A DNA stretch of 12,885 nucleotides from Thalassiosira profunda (Eukaryota > Bacillariophyta > Thalassiosirophyceae > Thalassiosirales > Thalassiosiraceae). Location: the NCBI GenBank assembly GCA_036939355.1, contig JALLAP010001286.1, positions 1-12,885 of the forward strand, written 5' to 3'. The translations under genes and the position numbers were made by a program. Below the pieces are notes generated by a model, which saw only the letters and a program-made list of their open reading frames with translations, ran no database searches and was not told where the DNA came from. Below, piece by piece: positions 1-12,095 of the stretch. How positions within the stretch are numbered: position 1 is the stretch's first letter; each line of letters opens with the position of its first letter.

Positions 1-2374
1 CGGCTCGGGCCAATGTCGTCTTGGCACAACCCGGAGGTCCGTGCAGAAGCACGCCCCGTGGTGGCGTCAGACCCAGAGCTTGGAAGGCGCCTCGTCGCGT
101 TCGTGGCCACTCGATTGCCTCGCGCAATGCCCGCTTCGCGCCTCTGGCATCGCCCGCAATATCGTCCCAGTTGGTTTTTGGTGGGGCCGAAAGGGAGGCA
201 TCGCGGAGGCACGAGGCGCCAACGTCGTTCATTGCCGAGAAAAGGTCTTTTGCAATCATCGTTGGCGGGTGATTTTGGAGTTCAGGCCGACGCAGTGGGT
301 CATGAAATTGTCTCTCGATGCAGAGAATTGCAGCCCTGCGAACGAGCGCAGACAGATCCGCCGCAACGTAGCCGACGCAGGCTTCTGCAACTCTTTGCAA
401 ATCTGCTTCGTCAATACAGTCGGAAGGCCCAATCAAGCTCTTCAAGAGACCGAATCGTTCCTCGGCGTCCGGCGGGCTCACCACCACCTCCTTTTCGAGC
501 CTTCCCGGCCTTCGAAGGAACGCTGGAATGGCATCCACGCGGTTGGTAGCCGCGGCGACCAGAATGCGCTCCCAGCCACCCCCGCCCTCGTCTGGATCCA
601 CGACCCCTTCCATCCGATCCAGAATCACGGCCAGCATCGCCGCCACCACGGGCGATGAGACGAGAGCGTCGCACTCGTCCAAGAAGACAATTACCGCTTC
701 GGCGATGGCACCGGTGGCGCTTCGAAACTGCCTCTCCAACTCCCGCGCTGAGGAGGCGTGGTTTCCGCCGGACGAGGACGCAGTCGCCAGAAGCTCTGAT
801 CCCCTTAGAGACAGAAGATGCACCGCCTTACGATCCGACGTCGACGCAGTTACGTCCAACGGCCACGAGTTGGCAATATCCACAGCTTGCTTCACAGAGT
901 ACGTCTTGCCCACACCCGGGGGACCAGATAGCAGGAAGCTCCTTGGGACCGTCGGCCTGCCTCGATCCGATTGGAAGCACAGCATTGCCCTCAAGGAGTC
1001 CACGAGATGTTGGTGAGGCGGCACGCGCGCGTGATGGCCCTTGGAGGATGGCAGTGGTGGTATTTGTGCAATGGGATGCACATCTGGTGCAGTGGAGTTT
1101 GTTGATTGCCCCGCTTTGCCAGAACCCGCCTTCTCATCGCACTGAAAGATTATCCTCGTGCTCGGAAGTATGACAAAAAGTGTCAATGCATCACTTTGGT
1201 CCTGAAGCGACGTTTGACTCCCGGACGATTGGACGTCCCCAACTCCAAACTCTAGTACCCTCCAAAGGCCTCCAACGCCAGCAGGTGGATTCTGTGGAAC
1301 TTTCACCGACAATCTGCATCTGATGGACAATGTGGCTTGTTCTCCGTCCTCGTTCTTTGCGCGGTGCAATATGACCCTTCCAACGAGGAGGCGCTTGACG
1401 CAGGCCCTGAGCAGGGCATCGGAATTGATGTCGCTACCGGCCGAGGTATCTCCGCCGCGTGGATAAAGAGTGATCGAAAGGAGAGGTATCCTTCTGGCAG
1501 TTGGAAGCGGCAGGATGAAACCATCACCTTGACTGGGAGCCGACGATGCCGGTTCGTTTCCCAAAGAATCACCAGAGCCTTCACCGATGCCCTCAGCAAT
1601 CAATAGCCTCAGATTCACCTGATCGCGTCCCTTTTGCAAAGCTCGCGGTAACGAAGATGAACTCCCAGGAAAATTGCCCACGTCATCGTCCATTCCCAGC
1701 ACTTCCACGATGGCGTCGGCCACGCAACACTCGTTGCTGCAAGGGCAGCGGCGACGGTGGACGTGATGCCCGCTTGCCACCTGAGCAAGGGATCGATACA
1801 TCTGTTCAACGTCCCCTCGCGATACGTCCAATACGCGCTCATTTCTCCCCCTCGATCGGTTTGAATATTGCCTCGAACGCCAATTTGCAATGCAACGCCG
1901 CAGAAACGATACGCACCCCTCGGTCGGTGCATCCCTCCCGTCGACGCTGCAACCAGTCTCGTTCGACGGTGCGACGATGGAATGGCTGTTTGGAAAGTGA
2001 GCCAGAATCTCCTCCAAAGAAAGATCCTCCTTCTCAGTCTCAACACCGGATTCGTTCTCTGTGCGCAGACTGATGCCAACACGGGTGTCGTTGTCCGTCC
2101 CTTCGTAGAGGCACAGGAATCGCTCGTCCGATGCTCCCTCCCCACTTGTTGATGGGCGCGCGCATCTGATGGGCACTCTTGCAATTTTGCACAGCCGTCC
2201 ACAGATGGGCGCCCCGACGCCCTCATTTACATCTCCACTGCGCACGACCACGGCGTCACATTGCCTTAGAGCCGCGCGCGACGATGGATGCGGGCGACGA
2301 CGCCGTCGCCCATCAAAAATCGATGGCAGGGCGTCCTCCTGCCGCCGCGGCGGAGGAGCGTTCGCAGTCGCCAT
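1..2374 (-). CDS. Type II AAA+ ATPase, CDC48B/SPATA5L1 (AFG2B)-like, 3' end outside window
   Basis: An uninterrupted minus-strand frame runs from ATG 2374 (context gcaaaaATGg) off the left edge, at least 791 residues. Domain D1 has Walker A GPPGVGKT (residues ~484-491, nt 925-902), Walker B VIVFLDECD (~561-569), a sensor-1 segment AAATNRVDAI, and an arginine-finger-like RRPGR. D2 starts near NWDDIAGD and shows Walker A GPPGCAKT (~779-786, nt 40-17), where the window ends. The unusual P-loop GCAKTTLARA and the IEWP...GLTPPRGVLLHGPPG run are typical of SPATA5L1 and plant CDC48B rather than of CDC48/p97, PEX1/6 or NSF. These proteins act as ATP-driven unfoldases, in animals in 60S ribosome maturation with AFG2A. 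The region before D1 is long (~480 residues versus roughly 240 in human SPATA5L1) and holds a cysteine cluster CPCSNECC at ~210-217. The frame stays open back to 2455, just after a C-tract and CACAG, so an upstream exon is possible. Confidence 0.88.
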   Translation of the reverse strand, partial: MATANAPPPRRQEDALPSIFDGRRRRRPHPSSRAALRQCDAVVVRSGDVNEGVGAPICGRLCKIARVPIRCARPSTSGEGASDERFLCLYEGTDNDTRVGISLRTENESGVETEKEDLSLEEILAHFPNSHSIVAPSNETGCSVDGRDAPTEGCVSFLRRCIANWRSRQYSNRSRGRNERVLDVSRGDVEQMYRSLAQVASGHHVHRRRCPCSNECCVADAIVEVLGMDDDVGNFPGSSSSLPRALQKGRDQVNLRLLIAEGIGEGSGDSLGNEPASSAPSQGDGFILPLPTARRIPLLSITLYPRGGDTSAGSDINSDALLRACVKRLLVGRVILHRAKNEDGEQATLSIRCRLSVKVPQNPPAGVGGLWRVLEFGVGDVQSSGSQTSLQDQSDALTLFVILPSTRIIFQCDEKAGSGKAGQSTNSTAPDVHPIAQIPPLPSSKGHHARVPPHQHLVDSLRAMLCFQSDRGRPTVPRSFLLSGPPGVGKTYSVKQAVDIANSWPLDVTASTSDRKAVHLLSLRGSELLATASSSGGNHASSARELERQFRSATGAIAEAVIVFLDECDALVSSPVVAAMLAVILDRMEGVVDPDEGGGGWERILVAAATNRVDAIPAFLRRPGRLEKEVVVSPPDAEERFGLLKSLIGPSDCIDEADLQRVAEACVGYVAADLSALVRRAAILCIERQFHDPLRRPELQNHPPTMIAKDLFSAMNDVGASCLRDASLSAPPKTNWDDIAGDARGAKRALREAIEWPRTRRGAFQALGLTPPRGVLLHGPPGCAKTTLARA

Positions 2375-2575
2375 TTTTGCCGCCTGCAATTGCTGTCCCT
2401 CCCGCGCGAAGGCTCGGGGCCCCTCTGCTCTGGCCGCCACGGTGCCGAGGGAGGCCTGTGCAGGGGGGGGGGGGGTGCTGGTCGGTCTGGCAGGTCGGTG
2501 CTATGTAGCTGTACGAGGACGAAGGGTGGGAGGCGGGAGGAGGAGGAGAAAAAGATCACGTGACTTAAGTGTTAC
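2375..2575 (-). promoter_or_regulatory. Probable upstream region of the AAA ATPase gene with CACGTG elements
   Basis: This stretch holds a perfect palindrome TCACGTGA (2556-2563) and a second half-type element TTACGTGAC (2572-2580) 16 nt further on, the classic target shape of bHLH/bZIP factors. It also holds a run of 13 G (C on the minus strand) at 2463-2475. On the minus strand the C-run is followed by CTGCACAG, which also looks like a splice acceptor ending at 2456. The region is therefore either promoter/5' UTR of the ATPase starting at 2374, or a 120-nt intron (2456-2575, GTAACA...CACAG) joining the ORF piece at 2576-2851 to the ATPase. Both ends would be phase 0, so the sequence alone does not decide. 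Confidence 0.45.
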
Positions 2576-2910: not shown

Positions 2911-3237
2911 TACTTTGCCACCCTCGCGGTGGAGGACTACTTTGCCCGCGCCGGCGCCGTGGCGCCCGCAACCGTCATGTTGACGAAAGAACAGGTGGAG
3001 ACCCATCCCGTCAGCATGGTCGAACAATTTCGCAAGTTGGGGCTGCCCGTCGAGGTGAAGAACCGGCGGGTGGCCTTCGTGGGCGGACGGGAGGAGTGGG
3101 AGGTGTGCAAGGAGGGCAAAGAGCTGAGCGTCGAGCAGTGCAAGATACTGGTGCACATGGGGGTGAAGCTGGCGACGTTCAAGATCGGGCTGGTGCGACG
3201 GTGGGAGAAGGACGACGGGGCGGTGGAGGAGTTTTGA
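2911..3237 (+). pseudogene. Mrt4 (60S assembly factor, uL10/P0 paralogue) C-terminal fragment
   Basis: The 108-residue frame ending at TGA 3235-3237 matches the second half of Mrt4. It contains DYFARAG, then [15 protein letters not shown] (human: a LRQLGLPTALKRG-type segment), then [24 protein letters not shown] and a final FKIGLVRRW. Mrt4 occupies the P0 site on pre-60S particles before ribosomal stalk assembly. The full protein is about 236-240 residues. The N-terminal ~120, which carry the basic start and the rRNA-binding half, are not found in any plus-strand frame upstream. The homologous frame meets TAA at 2908-2910 directly before Tyr 2911. No splice acceptor fits there, because the AG at 2906-2907 would place TAA first in the exon. 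The first in-frame ATG is 2977, giving only 86 residues. It is likely a truncated copy or an assembly breakpoint, though residue conservation suggests it is recent. Confidence 0.72.
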
Positions 3238-5078: not shown

Positions 5079-7925
5079 TTAGTTGCTTGGCGAACAATAG
5101 GTACCCTTCAGCGTCGACAACAGCGTCTCGTCTTCTTCCGACACTTCCTTCAGAACATCGGCCGCCTTCTCAAAGTCCTGGATCAAGCCAACGATCCGTT
5201 CCCGCTTCGACGCCTCGAAGTGATTCGACAGCAGCGCGTCCACGCACGGCCGCTTCGTCATCAGCCCTCCCAGCGCCCGCACATACGCCATCGAATAGGG
5301 CGGTCGCGCGATCTCCAGCACGCCGCCGAAGAAGTATCGGAGGAGGGCCGAGTCCATCTCCGACGACCCCCCCTTCTCGAGCGTGCGCCGCACCGCCGAT
5401 AGCACGGCGAGGGACAGGCCCTGCGTGCACAGCCACAGCATCAGCCGTAGGCACTGCTCCTTGATGCTCGCCATCTTTTGGTGCGAGATCTCCCGATTCG
5501 AGTGGCCCATGAAAATAAGAGAGATGTCCAGGATGGCCGGCCGCGCCAGCGGGTGATGACGGGAGATGAGCCGCGCCAGGCTCAGGATGCACGGCGAGAT
5601 GGTGGGGTAGGAGGCCGTTTCCGCAAAGTCGGGCCGGCCGGCGAATTCCCTCGCCCACAGCAGCGCTCCCTGCGCCACCACGGGGTGGTGGATGCACAGG
5701 GCGCTCAGCTGCCGCCCCACCGAGCCATCGGCCGCGTCGCGGGCCTCGTCGACGACGGTGAAGGAGACCACGTTCTCCAGCCGCTCGCACAGCTGGCTGC
5801 CCTTCAGTATGGCCTCCGACAGGGCGTCCTCGTCGCTCGCGGCCACGTCCGCGTGGCCGCCCTCCGACCGCGCCCGCCGCTCCGCCGCCGTCGCCGCCAG
5901 CGCCACCAGCCGCGCGCACTTGAGCCGCGCCTCCAGCTGCCGGACGCGCTTCGCCCCGAACAGCGCCTGCAATAATGCCGTCACAGCAGCGGGATGTCGC
6001 ACGAGCAGGTCGCCGATTCGGTCGGTGGTCCCTCCGTAGGCGTACTTCAAGACGTTCTCCGCCACCTCCTTGTCGATGGGGACGTCCAGGCTGCTCTTCG
6101 TGAGCAGCTGCATCAGGGCCGAGTCCAGTGCGTCCGCGAGGTCGTCGTGCGACGACGAGCTGCCACTGACCGAACCGTCCACGCCATCGTTTGCCGGAGC
6201 CTTCCGCTTCCTCTTGCGCTGGAACAACTCCCCCATCGTCAACGCGGCGTCCACCCGACGTTTCCGCTGGAAGGTCGTCCCCGCCTTCGTCGGCGCGAGC
6301 ATCTCGTCCTCGAGCTCCTCGCGGAGGCGCTCCCACTTTCGGACGGCCCGCGCCAACCCCTGCCGCTGGCTGCCATCGTCGCCATTATTTGCCAGCAGCT
6401 CCTTCGTTTGGGCAATCAGCCTCTCCAGAACCTCCGTTGCATACAGATACGTGAAGGACGCGGACGTGCACGTCCGTCGCAGATCGGCCACCAGCCCGCC
6501 CATCGCGCCCGTGGTCCCGTCGATCGCCGAAGCCACCTCCCTCGTACATCCGTCCACCGCCACCCTCGCCGCGATCGACAATTCGCTCCCGAGCATAGAG
6601 CTGAACACCTCGAAGTACTCGCTCTGGTCGATCCGCCCCGCAATGTCCCGATGGTGGCCCAGGCTCGAGATCTTGCGCAGGCAGTAGGCAAATAACTTGC
6701 TCTCCTTGTGCGTCGCCGACAGGTCGATCAACAGCTTGCGCCACCGCTCCGAACGGATCATGTCCTCGACGAACCCGGCCTCCCCCTTCTTGAGGCCGAG
6801 GATGGCGTCGCCGTGCTCCTTCGTGAAGTGGTCGCGCACCAGGCGGCCGATGGCGTCTTCGGCGATGGATCGGGCGGCGTGTGCGCCCTCCTCGAACAAC
6901 GGATCCGCTGCACCCCCACCGTTGCCATACCCAACACTGTTGGGATTGGCAGTCCCCTCCTTCCCAATCACGGCCCCGCCCGCCCTTAACTCCGCGAGCC
7001 ACCGTCCCATCAGCCCGCACGATGCCGCACTCCCGCCGTAATGGGTCACTAAACTCTGCAATGCCTTGGGACCGGCCACCTGCGGCCCCAATTCCCGCAC
7101 CAACACATTAATCTGCTCGACGACGGCGGGTTCCATGACCGCATCGGGGCGCTGCAGAAATTGTTCGGCCTCGGCGGCGGTGCGTTGGGGCTTGCCGTCG
7201 GTGGGTTCGACGTCCATGCTGTCGTCGGCCCATTGCTTGGAGGGGGAGACGTCCCCTTCTTGGGGAGACTTCCCTCCCAGCGGAGATGCAGCCTCCTCGT
7301 CGCCCAACTGCATGCCCTCCGCACCCATCTCCTCCTCTGGACTGCGAGGAGTGGACGCCCCCGCAATACCGCCCGCCTCCTCCTCCGCCGCCCCGACGTC
7401 GGGCCGCTCCCACTGCGTCTCCCCCGAGTCGGCGTGGTAATAGTACACCCTCCCCTCGTTGTCGGGATCTTTATAGGCGACCCACCCGCCCCCGATGTCC
7501 TCCCCGTTGGCCGCGTCCTCGTCGGCCTCCTCTGCTTCCTCTGCGGCCGGTTCAGCGGCGGCCTCGGCGTTGAATGAGGGTGGAGACTTCGCGATGCCGT
7601 CGCCGTCGTCTGGTGCACCCGCGGGGGGGGACGTGGCAATTCCCCCCCCCGCGGGCGATTTCGCGGCGCGCTCAATTTCCAGAGGAGGCCTCTCCGCACC
7701 AGCGCCGCCCCCTTCGTTTCCAACAGCGTCTCCGTCTCCATCTGCAGCAGCCACACCACCAGCAGCAGCACCCTCCTCGGCAAAGCCCGGGGGCGCGTCC
7801 CACGTCGTCTCGCCCGACCTTTCGTTGTGGTAATACGTCCGCCCGTCGTCGTCGAGGTAGGCCGTCCAGTCGCCGATCGTCCGCCCCTCGGCCGCGGAGG
7901 CGGCGGCGGAGTCGTCGTCCGCCAT
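5079..7925 (-). CDS. NELF-C/D (TH1) homologue with two N-terminal WW domains
   Basis: Intronless 948-residue protein. WW1 spans ~18-47 (W20, YY31-32, W42, P45). WW2 spans ~146-176 (W148, YYY161-163, W172, P175). Both are the group seen in Prp40/FBP11-type splicing and transcription proteins. An acidic linker follows, with repeated Ser-Pro sites (KSPA, TSPP, KSPP, TPRSP, KSPQ, SPSK). From ~252 to ~930 it matches NELF-C/D: RPDAVMEP, HFTKEHGDAIL, SERWRKLLIDLS near the start, and HPVVAQGALLWA, RRTLEKGG, LLRYFFGGVLEIARPPY near the end. In animals NELF-C/D is a core subunit of the negative elongation factor that holds promoter-proximal Pol II. An inserted basic segment KRKRK (~568-573) followed by a Ser-rich stretch may be a nuclear signal. 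Human NELF-C/D is about 590 residues and has no WW domain. Start ATG 7925 precedes WW1 directly. It diverges from the gene at 8155 over 229 bp. Confidence 0.87.
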   Translation of the reverse strand: MADDDSAAASAAEGRTIGDWTAYLDDDGRTYYHNERSGETTWDAPPGFAEEGAAAGGVAAADGDGDAVGNEGGGAGAERPPLEIERAAKSPAGGGIATSPPAGAPDDGDGIAKSPPSFNAEAAAEPAAEEAEEADEDAANGEDIGGGWVAYKDPDNEGRVYYYHADSGETQWERPDVGAAEEEAGGIAGASTPRSPEEEMGAEGMQLGDEEAASPLGGKSPQEGDVSPSKQWADDSMDVEPTDGKPQRTAAEAEQFLQRPDAVMEPAVVEQINVLVRELGPQVAGPKALQSLVTHYGGSAASCGLMGRWLAELRAGGAVIGKEGTANPNSVGYGNGGGAADPLFEEGAHAARSIAEDAIGRLVRDHFTKEHGDAILGLKKGEAGFVEDMIRSERWRKLLIDLSATHKESKLFAYCLRKISSLGHHRDIAGRIDQSEYFEVFSSMLGSELSIAARVAVDGCTREVASAIDGTTGAMGGLVADLRRTCTSASFTYLYATEVLERLIAQTKELLANNGDDGSQRQGLARAVRKWERLREELEDEMLAPTKAGTTFQRKRRVDAALTMGELFQRKRKRKAPANDGVDGSVSGSSSSHDDLADALDSALMQLLTKSSLDVPIDKEVAENVLKYAYGGTTDRIGDLLVRHPAAVTALLQALFGAKRVRQLEARLKCARLVALAATAAERRARSEGGHADVAASDEDALSEAILKGSQLCERLENVVSFTVVDEARDAADGSVGRQLSALCIHHPVVAQGALLWAREFAGRPDFAETASYPTISPCILSLARLISRHHPLARPAILDISLIFMGHSNREISHQKMASIKEQCLRLMLWLCTQGLSLAVLSAVRRTLEKGGSSEMDSALLRYFFGGVLEIARPPYSMAYVRALGGLMTKRPCVDALLSNHFEASKRERIVGLIQDFEKAADVLKEVSEEDETLLSTLKGTYCSPSN
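7618..7655. repeat. Perfect 13-bp GC inverted repeat inside the NELF-like coding region
   Basis: Left arm CCCGCGGGGGGGG (7618-7630) is the exact reverse complement of CCCCCCCCGCGGG (7643-7655), with a 12-nt spacer. On the transcript it would form a very stable hairpin in the linker between the WW domains, where the protein reads SPAGGGIATSPPAG. The reading frame is intact across it, since both WW domains lie in one frame. Confidence 0.8.
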
Positions 7926-8154: not shown

Positions 8155-9783
8155 ATGTCGAAGGCTCTAGTACTTGACGATATTGAAGGGTCTCTATCGG
8201 AGGTCCTGTCCTATTTCACGCTGGCAGAGCTGGCGGAAATCCGCCGTGCGTCGCCCAATCTTCGGGAGGCATGCGAGCGTCGCAAGGCGTACATTCACAG
8301 CCTATTGACGAAGGGCGCGCTGGTGGAGATCGTCGACCTGACCTCCGAGCGCGGGAAGCGGCTGAATGGACGGCTGGCGGCAGTGAGCGGTCCTATCGAC
8401 AACGGCCGGTACCCGGTGAAAGTGCGACACATCACCGGCAAGGCGGAGAACATCAGCCTGAAGCCCACCAACGTCAACCCATTCCTCAAGCCGGACGATG
8501 AGGCGAAAGAGAAATCCCGGCTCGCTTTCATCGACTACTCGTCCGATGCGAAAGTCAGGGAGGGGCACGGGCGTTTGTTCGATCAAGTCCTCATGTTGAT
8601 GCGCTATGCCGTGAACGAGCGACAGGGCTGCGATTGCTTCGAGGGGGAGTTCGAAGAGTTCATGCTTTTACCCAGGGCGGATCGGATGATTGCCAAGTTG
8701 AACAGGGAGGTATTCACTTATTACAAGGCCAAGCCATCTTTGGCAGGGTTGATGGTACCTGGCAACATGTCAGTGCTAGACAGCACCATCCATTCTCTAT
8801 GCGAATGCGAGGATGATATCATCGGTTGGTTCGGAAAGATGGCCGGATATGAGAAGGATGGTGCTGGAGGAGAGCTGATGGTTCGGAACTTCGTGCGATT
8901 CATGCAGTCCTGGGACAAAGAAAGGGTTTGTGGGGAGTTCTGGCTATGCAAGGTCGTCAAGACGGGCACACTTGTTGTTCAGAAAGTCGATGACGGCTTG
9001 GGGAATGTCTACCTGGTGAAAGGAGTTGGTAGCGTAGTGGGTGGACACGTGCCAACTTCGCTACCCGTCCTCGTCCGAACGACATTCCTCCCTCTGTATG
9101 ACATGCTCGTTTACGATGAGATCATGTTGGGCCTGCGCTTCCATGCAAGCCATTCATTCAAGGAAAAGATTGAGAAACATGTTGCCAAGGCGGTCCGGGA
9201 ACAGTCGGTGATTCATTGTGGAGAGAGTGCGTCCCGTGGACTCTGGAATACGGAGCCACCCAAAGTCGTGAAGCCGGTGCCTAGCAATAAGTCGCCATTG
9301 GAGGATCAGAAGGAAAATGTGGATCCCAAAGAGACCACGTACAAGCCGACTCGGAACCAGCTTCGCCTGGCGGTGAAGCTGGTGAAATTCGCCAAACGAC
9401 ATGGCTTCAAGACTGAAGAGCGCCCAGGGATTTCGAGGCTGACAGTCAGGCGGCTCGGTTACACGAAGGAGGATAATCCAATGCAAATGGTTGGATTGAT
9501 GTATCAGAAAGGGTCTTTTCATGATGGCATCTGTCCCTTTCCCTTCGAGAAGTGGCCCTGCTACACGTTGGACGAACTTCTGGCCATGATTTTCACGAAG
9601 GTGAAGATGCTTGGCACCATGCCCGGCATGATCTGGGTGGACGAGACATCTCTCGTTGCTCCGCTGAGAAAGTGTCTGAAAGTGGCGAGTGATCACATCG
9701 GCTTCCACGAGGAGGTGCAAGTGGTGTGGTATCCTCCGCCCTCCGACGAGGAGCAGGCCTACCACTCGTATGGGCTGTATTGA
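8155..9783 (+). CDS. F-box-like and SH3-like domain protein, function unknown
   Basis: A 542-residue intronless protein starting at ATG 8155 (context aaccATGt). The frame is open further upstream but has no better ATG and crosses the promoter palindrome, so I place the start here. Residues ~8-46 look like a weak F-box (LSEVLSYFTLAELAEIRRAS), which in other proteins binds Skp1 in ubiquitin ligases. Residues ~56-110 contain LVEIVDLTSERGKRLNGRLA and GRYPVKV...ISLKPTNV, the small SH3-like barrel seen in many algal proteins, often beside MYND fingers; no zinc-finger cysteine pattern is present here. The middle is charged with hydrophobic helices. After a KEN-containing acidic linker (~391-397), a C-terminal part has a basic helix (NQLRLAVKLVKFAKRHG) and a terminal alpha/beta segment with MIWVDETSLVAPLRKCL and VVWYPPPSDEEQ, similar in shape to DUF6930-type domains. 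Both calls beyond the SH3-like barrel are tentative. Confidence 0.75.
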   Translation: MSKALVLDDIEGSLSEVLSYFTLAELAEIRRASPNLREACERRKAYIHSLLTKGALVEIVDLTSERGKRLNGRLAAVSGPIDNGRYPVKVRHITGKAENISLKPTNVNPFLKPDDEAKEKSRLAFIDYSSDAKVREGHGRLFDQVLMLMRYAVNERQGCDCFEGEFEEFMLLPRADRMIAKLNREVFTYYKAKPSLAGLMVPGNMSVLDSTIHSLCECEDDIIGWFGKMAGYEKDGAGGELMVRNFVRFMQSWDKERVCGEFWLCKVVKTGTLVVQKVDDGLGNVYLVKGVGSVVGGHVPTSLPVLVRTTFLPLYDMLVYDEIMLGLRFHASHSFKEKIEKHVAKAVREQSVIHCGESASRGLWNTEPPKVVKPVPSNKSPLEDQKENVDPKETTYKPTRNQLRLAVKLVKFAKRHGFKTEERPGISRLTVRRLGYTKEDNPMQMVGLMYQKGSFHDGICPFPFEKWPCYTLDELLAMIFTKVKMLGTMPGMIWVDETSLVAPLRKCLKVASDHIGFHEEVQVVWYPPPSDEEQAYHSYGLY

Positions 9784-9966: not shown

Positions 9967-12095
9967 TCACGTTGGAAAGACAGTAACTTCCGCAGTCCCG
10001 GCGATGCGATCGATCTGGCCAACGCTGATTATGTACCCCCAAATCTCAAAGGACCCTCCGGAGTCCAGCTTGGCCACCAGTTCCGACTCGGAATAGCTGT
10101 TCCTCCCGCCGCGCGGACGTCGCACGACGGTGACCATGTTCCGAGCCTCCTGCGTCTGCGCGTTGATCCCCCGTTTGGCGTTGAAGTTGACGTAATGATC
10201 GTTTCCCGACCGATTTTGGATCNTGCGTCTGCGCGTTGATCCCCCGTTTGGCGTTGAAGTTGACGTAATGATCGTTTCCCGACCGATTTTGGATCCGCAG
10301 AAGGACGGTGGTCGCAATTGGATAGTCCGCGATGCCGTGAAGAATCCCATCAAAACTGTTGTTGGCCCCACTGGAATTGATCGTGATGCCTTTATCTCGA
10401 TACCAACCCGTCTGCCAGCTTTTCGCAGCGTTGAAGCACATCCGCGGGGAATCGCTGTTGGGATACGAAGCACCCATGATCCCAGTCTGATCCTCGTACG
10501 TCTCGCCGCCTTCGTTCGAGTGACCCATATTGAGGTTGTGCCCCTGAGGAAAAGAAAACATGCTTGTAGCAAACACTTACGAATGCATCAAGCACTCCAG
10601 TCGCAAAGAAACTCACCAGCTCATGCATCTGGAGGGAAACTGAAGTACACCACTTGTCGTTGAAAATCGAGAGCCAATGATGAATGTAGGCGTATGCAAT
10701 GCCTTTGCCGTCCGCACCAGGGTTGGGGCTGTACGTGCCAACGGGCAGGCAGTAGACCACAAATTTGGCGAGCTCTGTTGGATGCTTCACGCCAAACATT
10801 CTGTTGAGCTCCTTCGTTACGGCAACCCGCATTGTGCCGTGTCCGTCGACTTTGCGGACTGACGGAAGGTTAACTGTCACAACTCCGTTGGCAATGGAGG
10901 CATTTCGATTGTCAGCACTTCCTCCGGATCGATCCAGAGCTTTGACGAGCTTCAACTTTCCGTGGCTGCACGCGTCGAATTGCGACACCATATTCGCGCG
11001 GTCGACGCCATTGCCGAACACGCTATTGCTGAGGGATGTCTCGTTCACCGACATTGCTTTGTCCGCCACGTCTACGCGTACGACAAGGACGGATTGGGTG
11101 CCTTCAAAAGCAGTGTCCTCCTTCTCGCGTTGGCCTGCCGCAATTGGCGCCTCTCCCTTCAGATCCACCGTGCCATTTGGGAAGAACTCCGTGCTCTCTG
11201 GGAGAGCAATCAGCGACACCCCCGAGACGAGTTCGCGCTTGGCGTAGTCCACAAAGCCGGAAGGGAGGTTCTGCAGCTCGTAAATTGTCCCCTCGGGCAG
11301 CTCCACGTTCAGCGGCCGCTCCCTCCGCGGCATGATGAGGATCGTCCCTGTCACTTCCTCCCCGTCGCCTCCGATATCGTCAATAACGTCGGATCGCTCA
11401 ACTTCAAAGGGAAAATCCTTCTCCTCGTACAAGTCCTCAGGATCGCTCTCCAACACGACCCCTCCGTCGACCCTCGCGCTCCATTCCCCCCGACCGTACG
11501 CGCAGCACATCCCATCTCCCGAGGAGTCGAACCACCTCATGAAATACTCCCCGGGAGGAAGGCAGAGGGCGCCCACATAACGGGTCCGACGTTTGTACTT
11601 CGTGCCCTCGGGTGGGCCGAAAGCCAATAGTTCACCCTCTCCATCGTCTCCGCCTGAGGCATGCAGTTCCCATCGGATCTCGCCGGGAAAATCGTCCGTT
11701 AAGAGGCGGAGGATCCACCGATGCTCGCCGTCGGGGCAGCGGGCGGGAGTGGACGACGAGGGGGGCGGCTGCCGGAGGACTTTTTGTTGGTTGATGGTCA
11801 TTAAGCTCGACGCATCTCCCATCGCTGCATCCGCACTGCCGCCGAAGGTCGGATCGCGGGCATCGCCACGTCTTGTGCCGAGGTAAGCCGCCACGCCGAC
11901 GAGTGCCGAGAACAACAGCGCGAGGAGGGCGGCGATGTGACCTCGGCGACACATTGCAACTGAAGAGCGGCGGGCGCTCTCGTTATCGGTCGCGCCCTCC
12001 GCCCTTGCCTCTTCGTCATCTATCGCGCTCATCGACTCTAGATTATGATGCCGATTGTGCAGCAAATCTCCTGTCTCCTTCATCCGATCTTGCAT
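9967..12095 (-). CDS. Membrane-anchored gametolysin-type (M11) metallopeptidase, two exons, disrupted by an assembly duplication
   Basis: Exon 1 runs 12095-10617 (493 codons) and exon 2 runs 10543-9967. ATG 12095 directly follows an in-frame TAG. Residues 54-72 form one hydrophobic helix after basic residues, suggesting a type II anchor with the enzyme outside or in the lumen. Residues ~126-230 form a domain with TDDFPGE, CLPPGEYFMRWFDSSGDGMCCAYG, a GDGxC pattern common in stramenopile secreted proteins. Splicing creates the zinc motif HELGHNLNMGHS (H491, E492, H495, H501), then DQTGIMGASY (Met-turn M516) and MCFNAAKSWQTGWY, all hallmarks of peptidase family M11, which cleaves cell-wall or matrix glycoproteins in Chlamydomonas. 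The usual metzincin glycine (HExxHxxG) is Asn here. A 72-bp duplication around an N shifts the frame. Without the extra 73 nt exon 2 is exactly 168 codons and ends at TGA 9967-9969, giving 660 residues, so the gene is probably intact in the organism. Confidence 0.85.
10151..10295. repeat. Two identical 72-bp blocks around a single N (likely assembly artefact)
   Basis: Block 10151-10222 and block 10224-10295 are identical over 72 bp, starting TGCGTCTGCG and ending TTTTGGATC, with N at 10223 between them. The extra length (72 + 1 = 73 nt) is not a multiple of three and breaks the M11 peptidase frame; counting the block once restores it. This is what results when two overlapping contig ends are placed side by side with a token gap. 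Confidence 0.93.
10544..10616 (-). other. 73-nt spliceosomal intron within the zinc-binding motif
   Basis: Donor GTGAGT directly follows CATGAGCTG (His-Glu-Leu). The acceptor is TTTTCTTTTCCTCAG, a strong pyrimidine tract, followed by GGGCACAAC (Gly-His-Asn). Joining them at phase 0 restores HELGHN, so the splice sites are fixed by the protein family rather than guessed. Unspliced, exon 1 reads through into a wrong frame and stops at 10392-10394. Confidence 0.92.

Follow-up and report, generated by a model that had tools for sequence, protein, structure and literature searches.

We analysed a stretch of 12,885 nucleotides (hereafter the window) from contig JALLAP010001286.1 of the Thalassiosira profunda assembly GCA_036939355.1, in which a gene on the minus strand encodes two WW domains followed by the body of NELF-C/D, a subunit of the negative elongation factor (NELF). 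The gene is a single frame of 948 codons plus a stop, opening with ATG and containing zero internal stops and zero N (Table 1). A Pfam scan of the protein returned TH1, the NELF-C/D family, at 122.3 bits (cut-off 24, E=3.3e-35) and WW in two stretches at 70.4 bits (cut-off 26.9, E=1.2e-19). The original prediction, made from the sequence alone, had placed two WW domains at W20/W42/P45 and W148/W172/P175 ahead of a full-length NELF-C/D body in one uninterrupted frame, and had staked itself on a TH1 profile match. These residue positions are correct, the WW score lies above the cut-off, the TH1 span covers residues 252-943, and the TH1 match is strong. The observation of WW domains joined to NELF-C/D is therefore confirmed, far beyond chance. 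When the PDB was searched by sequence with the protein, NELF-C/D ranked first (E=6.7e-20), with the WW domains of PRPF40A and TCERG1 next. The Pfam scan found no FF domain and no isomerase domain in the protein; two weak matches overlapping the WW domains, Glyco_hyd_101C and Choline_bind_3, both fell under the cut-off and were set aside. This is the only TH1 gene found in the assembly (21.8 Mb, 1366 contigs).

Both WW domains have two tryptophans, a closing proline and a modelled beta-sheet in addition to the score above the Pfam cut-off, with a third strand of just two residues each by DSSP. A profile match to chain 8jj6_D (human NELF-C in the NELF-BCE structure, E=1.2e-7) extends into the first part of residues 395-448, and by this sequence similarity the N-terminal part, the one seen with NELF-B in NELF-BCE (8jj6), appears to be present. 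The model of the body has the NELF-C/D fold, this part and the C-terminal horseshoe both being matched.

Table 1. Features of the WW-NELF-C/D gene, with window coordinates and residue numbers; pLDDT, predicted local distance difference test.
Feature	Coordinates	Strand	Residues	Remarks
WW-WW-TH1 protein (NELF-C/D)	5079..7925	-		one frame, 948 aa
WW domain 1	7791..7868	-	20-45	acidic loop 1 (LDDDGRT); strands in the model, mean pLDDT per block 79-95 across residues 11-50
Linker A	7485..7790	-	46-147	mostly predicted disordered (pLDDT <50 at 51-135); acidic; KSP, ATSP and KSP motifs
WW domain 2	7401..7484	-	148-175	acidic loop 1 (KDPDNEGRV)
Linker B	7173..7400	-	176-251	predicted disordered (pLDDT <50 at 179-245); Ser-Pro motifs
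NELF-C/D (TH1) body	5097..7172	-	252-943	all-helical in the model
Most conserved family stretch	6582..6743	-	395-448	invariant columns in 31 rows
C-terminal TH1 block	5271..6023	-	635-885	matched to human NELF-C ~327-552

Several other frames lie in the window. The frame at 2-2440 (-), 813 aa long up to the window edge, is the start of a CDC48-like AAA ATPase with two AAA matches (Pfam AAA E=3.2e-20), its NCBIfam CDC48 match falling under that model's cut-off. At 2929-3234 (+), a frame matches the insertion domain of 60S ribosomal protein L10P (Pfam E=7.8e-16; the scan covered this piece alone). A divergent frame of 542 aa at 8155-9780 (+), separated from the start codon of NELF-C/D by about 230 bases, has no Pfam or NCBIfam match. 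Further along, a direct repeat of about 72 bases at 10151-10295 flanks a single N at 10223 and is likely an assembly scar; near it, the 567-aa frame at 10395-12095 (-) has no Pfam match.

Conservation of the fusion among diatoms

To the window's protein we added 150 relatives from databases, giving a family of 151 proteins, which also served to build the local model used for counting WW domains. In 115 of them the TH1 start is intact and preceded by 100 residues or more, and every one of these carries a WW domain, in one (13 proteins), two (78), three (4), four (7), five (6), seven (5), eight (1) or nine (1) copies. The remaining 36 comprise 26 without a TH1 start and without WW, eight with a short upstream part and no WW, and two with a short upstream part that nevertheless includes one. 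For the 114 database proteins among the 115, precomputed Pfam domains agree with the local count except in P0092, and a Pfam scan of 31 proteins found WW in 28; three proteins listed without WW (P0018, P0021, P0022) begin within TH1 or WW2. Copy numbers of seven to nine occur in P0141, P0091, P0040, P0086, P0087, P0097 and P0144, five of which are in our tree, on three separate branches.

An error of gene modelling or assembly that joined two separate genes could explain the fusion, and WW is indeed absent from 34 of the 151 models. In all 34, however, the TH1 start is missing (26) or preceded by fewer than 100 residues (8), whereas all 115 long-enough models are fused; the window's gene is itself one frame with no N inside. 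The original prediction allowed that transcripts might show the WW and TH1 parts to be separate genes; in relatives they do not, since four MMETSP transcripts marked complete (P0030, P0033, P0107, P0134) carry both parts in one frame. We accordingly reject an artefact as next to impossible.

All relatives bearing an organism name are diatoms: Thalassiosira exigua, Discostella, Cyclostephanos, Conticribra, Skeletonema dohrnii, S. potamos, Fragilaria crotonensis, Nitzschia inconspicua, Epithemia, Cylindrotheca, a Bacillariaceae metagenome-assembled genome and Mediolabrus comicus, while two more carry codes that we take to mean Cyclotella cryptica and Pseudo-nitzschia multiseries. Taxonomic lineages were consulted for M. 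comicus and F. crotonensis. No named record is a non-diatom, in protein searches that scored just those candidates with the most shared words, favour close kin (one giving the best 120 of 161) and in which most records are nameless. The fusion is kept across the sampled diatoms, centric and pennate.

In a tree built with a quick method, the window protein pairs with that of T. exigua (Shimodaira-Hasegawa-like approximate likelihood ratio test, 97). Among the 118 rows, those with WW lie on both sides of the midpoint, and those without are mostly dispersed among them, apart from two clusters. One has nine rows, with WW in P0023 only, and its models start in or near TH1. The other, a long-branched clade of P0022, P0049 and P0057 with no WW-bearing member, may have lost WW; its models begin inside TH1. 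Given where the models of both clusters start, they are better read as silent on the WW state than as evidence of loss. With WW-bearing rows on both sides of the midpoint and complete transcripts in hand, the fusion is, as judged from these sequences, older than the split of the sampled diatoms, provided that the midpoint root is correct. Some JGI records are titled 'TH1 protein/WW domain', so the architecture is already visible in databases; no account of it was found among the matches listed in the open-access PMC literature, the scope of our search. We conclude that the WW-NELF-C/D fusion, a variant of NELF-C/D, is genuine and dates back a long way among the diatoms sampled, and that the literature searched does not describe it.

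WW domain type and linker motifs

The original prediction placed these WW domains in a group that binds proline-rich and phospho-Ser-Pro ligands. An Asn-His signature is a mark of group I and Pin1 WW domains, and Pin1 uses basic residues in loop 1 to hold phosphate. The family contains 291 WW domains, of which 283 could be parsed and eight could not; the third aromatic position is Y, F or H in 270 of the 283. The Asn-His signature occurs in only four, and loop 1 is acidic (net charge -1 or lower) in 279 instead of basic as in the Pin1 type (group IV). The assignment to the phospho-Ser-Pro group is therefore not supported, and the original interpretation as a whole is upheld in part. We also searched the T. 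profunda genome for WW domains with a model built from the NELF ones. Loci for 30 of the 33 WW places were covered, and 25 distinct domains were obtained: the two of NELF-C/D, 17 others that parsed and six others that did not. Loop 1 is acidic in just two of those 17. These sequence features suggest that the acidic loops suit basic proline-rich ligands and argue against phosphoserine, still leaving room for reading of the polymerase tail.

The linkers were described in the original prediction as rich in Ser-Pro, and comparison with shuffled sequences across the family bears this out. Ser-Pro occurs 170 times against 62.1 ± 7.1 in 56 representatives, and 77 times against 25.1 ± 4.8 in the 21 kept at a stricter cut. 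The motifs [RK]SP, PP[RK] and PPP (41 against 7.5) are enriched as well; Thr-Pro shows no enrichment in the representatives' linkers. The linkers of certain relatives (e.g. P0003, P0033, P0034, P0037, P0080) carry short recurrent motifs: DG[IF][TA][RK]SP repeats for some centric diatoms, SPxRPxSP for some others.

A possible docking arm on NELF-C/D

The gene, in our reading, encodes NELF-C/D, a predicted core subunit of the complex that slows Pol II near promoters, with a WW arm that would tether it to unphosphorylated, basic proline-rich motifs; we put the chances of this tethering, judged from the domain sequences, at about even. The body would remain in the NELF core alongside NELF-B, and the WW domains would bind proline-rich segments flanked by Arg or Lys, i.e., group II/III ligands. 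The arm's own R/K-Ser-Pro motifs may compete for the WW domains, by analogy with the proline-rich stretch of PRPF40A, and phosphorylation of these serines by CDK7, CDK9 or another proline-directed kinase could toggle the arm between binding itself and binding a partner. Candidate partners to consider first would be the unphosphorylated Pol II tail and proline-rich proteins of early elongation or splicing.

A number of observations weigh against this reading. Residues R419 and R506 of the basic patch of human NELF-C are, by our reading of the alignment, His and Gln here. In the linkers, Pro-Ser, the same dipeptide reversed, is enriched too, by a smaller margin (93 against 61.0 ± 7.5, and 42 against 25.3 ± 4.4 at the stricter cut), so that some of the surplus of Ser-Pro simply reflects a clustering of the two residues. 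Neither PPLP-type nor PPxY motifs show enrichment in the representatives' linkers (one and zero matches in 56; PPxY reaches 6 against 0.6 in the unreduced set of 91), and self-binding would thus require a different motif. DG[IFL]x(x)SP-type motifs occur in only five of the 56 representatives and one of the 21, making them largely lineage-bound, and the shuffle control compares the linkers with shuffled sequence and not with other acidic disordered regions. Lastly, profiles of NELF-B and NELF-A (PF06209, PF23553) had no match in the genome, with NELF-E not searched. The same approach also missed Spt5-NGN (detected in four archaea among the control genomes), FF and the C-terminal domain (CTD) of Rpb1, so either the assembly or the search misses genes and these nulls carry no weight, also for the original prediction's idea that the algal factor works without the RNA- and cap-linked subunits of animals.

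What else might the arm do? The original prediction had it read the Pol II tail in its phosphorylated form, which would give the pausing factor a direct sense of the state of the CTD. The WW domains of yeast Prp40 and PCIF1 do bind phosphorylated CTD, and arrays of up to nine WW domains would fit a repeated ligand. In the available text of PMC4940160, human NELF-C has a fold like that of a CTD-interacting domain and yet NELF-AC does not bind CTD diheptads, which leaves room for an added reader and would make the WW arm a gained surface. An acidic loop 1, however, should repel phosphate, and the near-universal acidity and near-absence of Asn-His in the family, set against the genome's other WW domains, make this reading unlikely; that no CTD repeats were found in this genome is an uninformative null. 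A bridge to splicing, in which Prp40-like WW domains on NELF-C/D bring SF1- or U1-type proline-rich splicing factors to the early elongating polymerase, draws on PRPF40A, TCERG1 and WBP4 being among the nearest solved WW domains, and on PRPF40A, whose WW domains bind SF1 and SF3A1 in the portion of PMC11079029 available. We hold it to be quite unlikely, since the protein lacks FF domains, no partner was seen and the charge of loop 1 is unlike that of most other parsed WW domains in the genome; it is also a special case of the tethering reading. Finally, the array might act mainly on its own protein: without any external ligand, it would bind the protein's Ser-Pro linkers and work as a lock controlled by phosphorylation or as a glue that forms multimers. 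The enriched linker motifs fit this, as does the precedent of PRPF40A, whose tandem WW domains are restrained by its own proline-rich segment according to the same portion of PMC11079029. The motifs vary by lineage, however, and Ser-Pro is absent from 12 of the 56 representatives, leaving self-binding as the sole role distinctly improbable.

What is known of NELF-dependent Pol II pausing comes mostly from animals, in which NELF-A and NELF-E supply further contacts to polymerase and RNA. Under the tethering reading, a NELF-C/D with an inbuilt binding array in both centric and pennate diatoms suggests independent rewiring of the NELF core in a major algal group, and the fusion makes it readily testable whether diatoms pause Pol II and how a NELF core without animal-type arms would be recruited. 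A wider proposal is that diatoms evolved a pause-control device of their own. In its NELF core, the C/D subunit would use an expandable array of WW domains and a tail rich in Ser-Pro as a docking arm switched by kinases, so that one fused protein does the recruiting left to NELF-A and NELF-E in animals; this extension is speculative, and we doubt it. The preprint PMC11482795, in the part available, describes NELF-B and C/D as a widely shared core and A and E as newer; the words diatom, stramenopile and WW domain are absent from its main text.

The fusion may be set beside three known systems. Metazoan NELF-C/D (TH1, NELFCD) shares the TH1 profile and the whole-body fold, N-terminal part and C-terminal horseshoe alike, but alignment to the human chain (590 aa) starts no earlier than residue 218 of the window's protein, and ahead of the body the diatom proteins add one to nine WW domains together with a Ser-Pro linker of acidic character. 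To the WW domain of Pin1/ESS1 there is a likeness of fold and a weaker sequence match; the diatom protein differs in having no isomerase domain, in the rarity of Asn-His and in an acidic rather than basic loop 1. PRPF40A/Prp40 and TCERG1 (CA150) offer the nearest solved WW domains by sequence, and likewise place tandem WW domains beside proline-containing disordered stretches in transcription-linked proteins. In PRPF40A, according to the available part of PMC11079029, the WW domains bind PPLP and PPPP motifs and the FF domains bind phosphorylated CTD, whereas the diatom protein has acidic loops and, in place of FF domains, a TH1 body.
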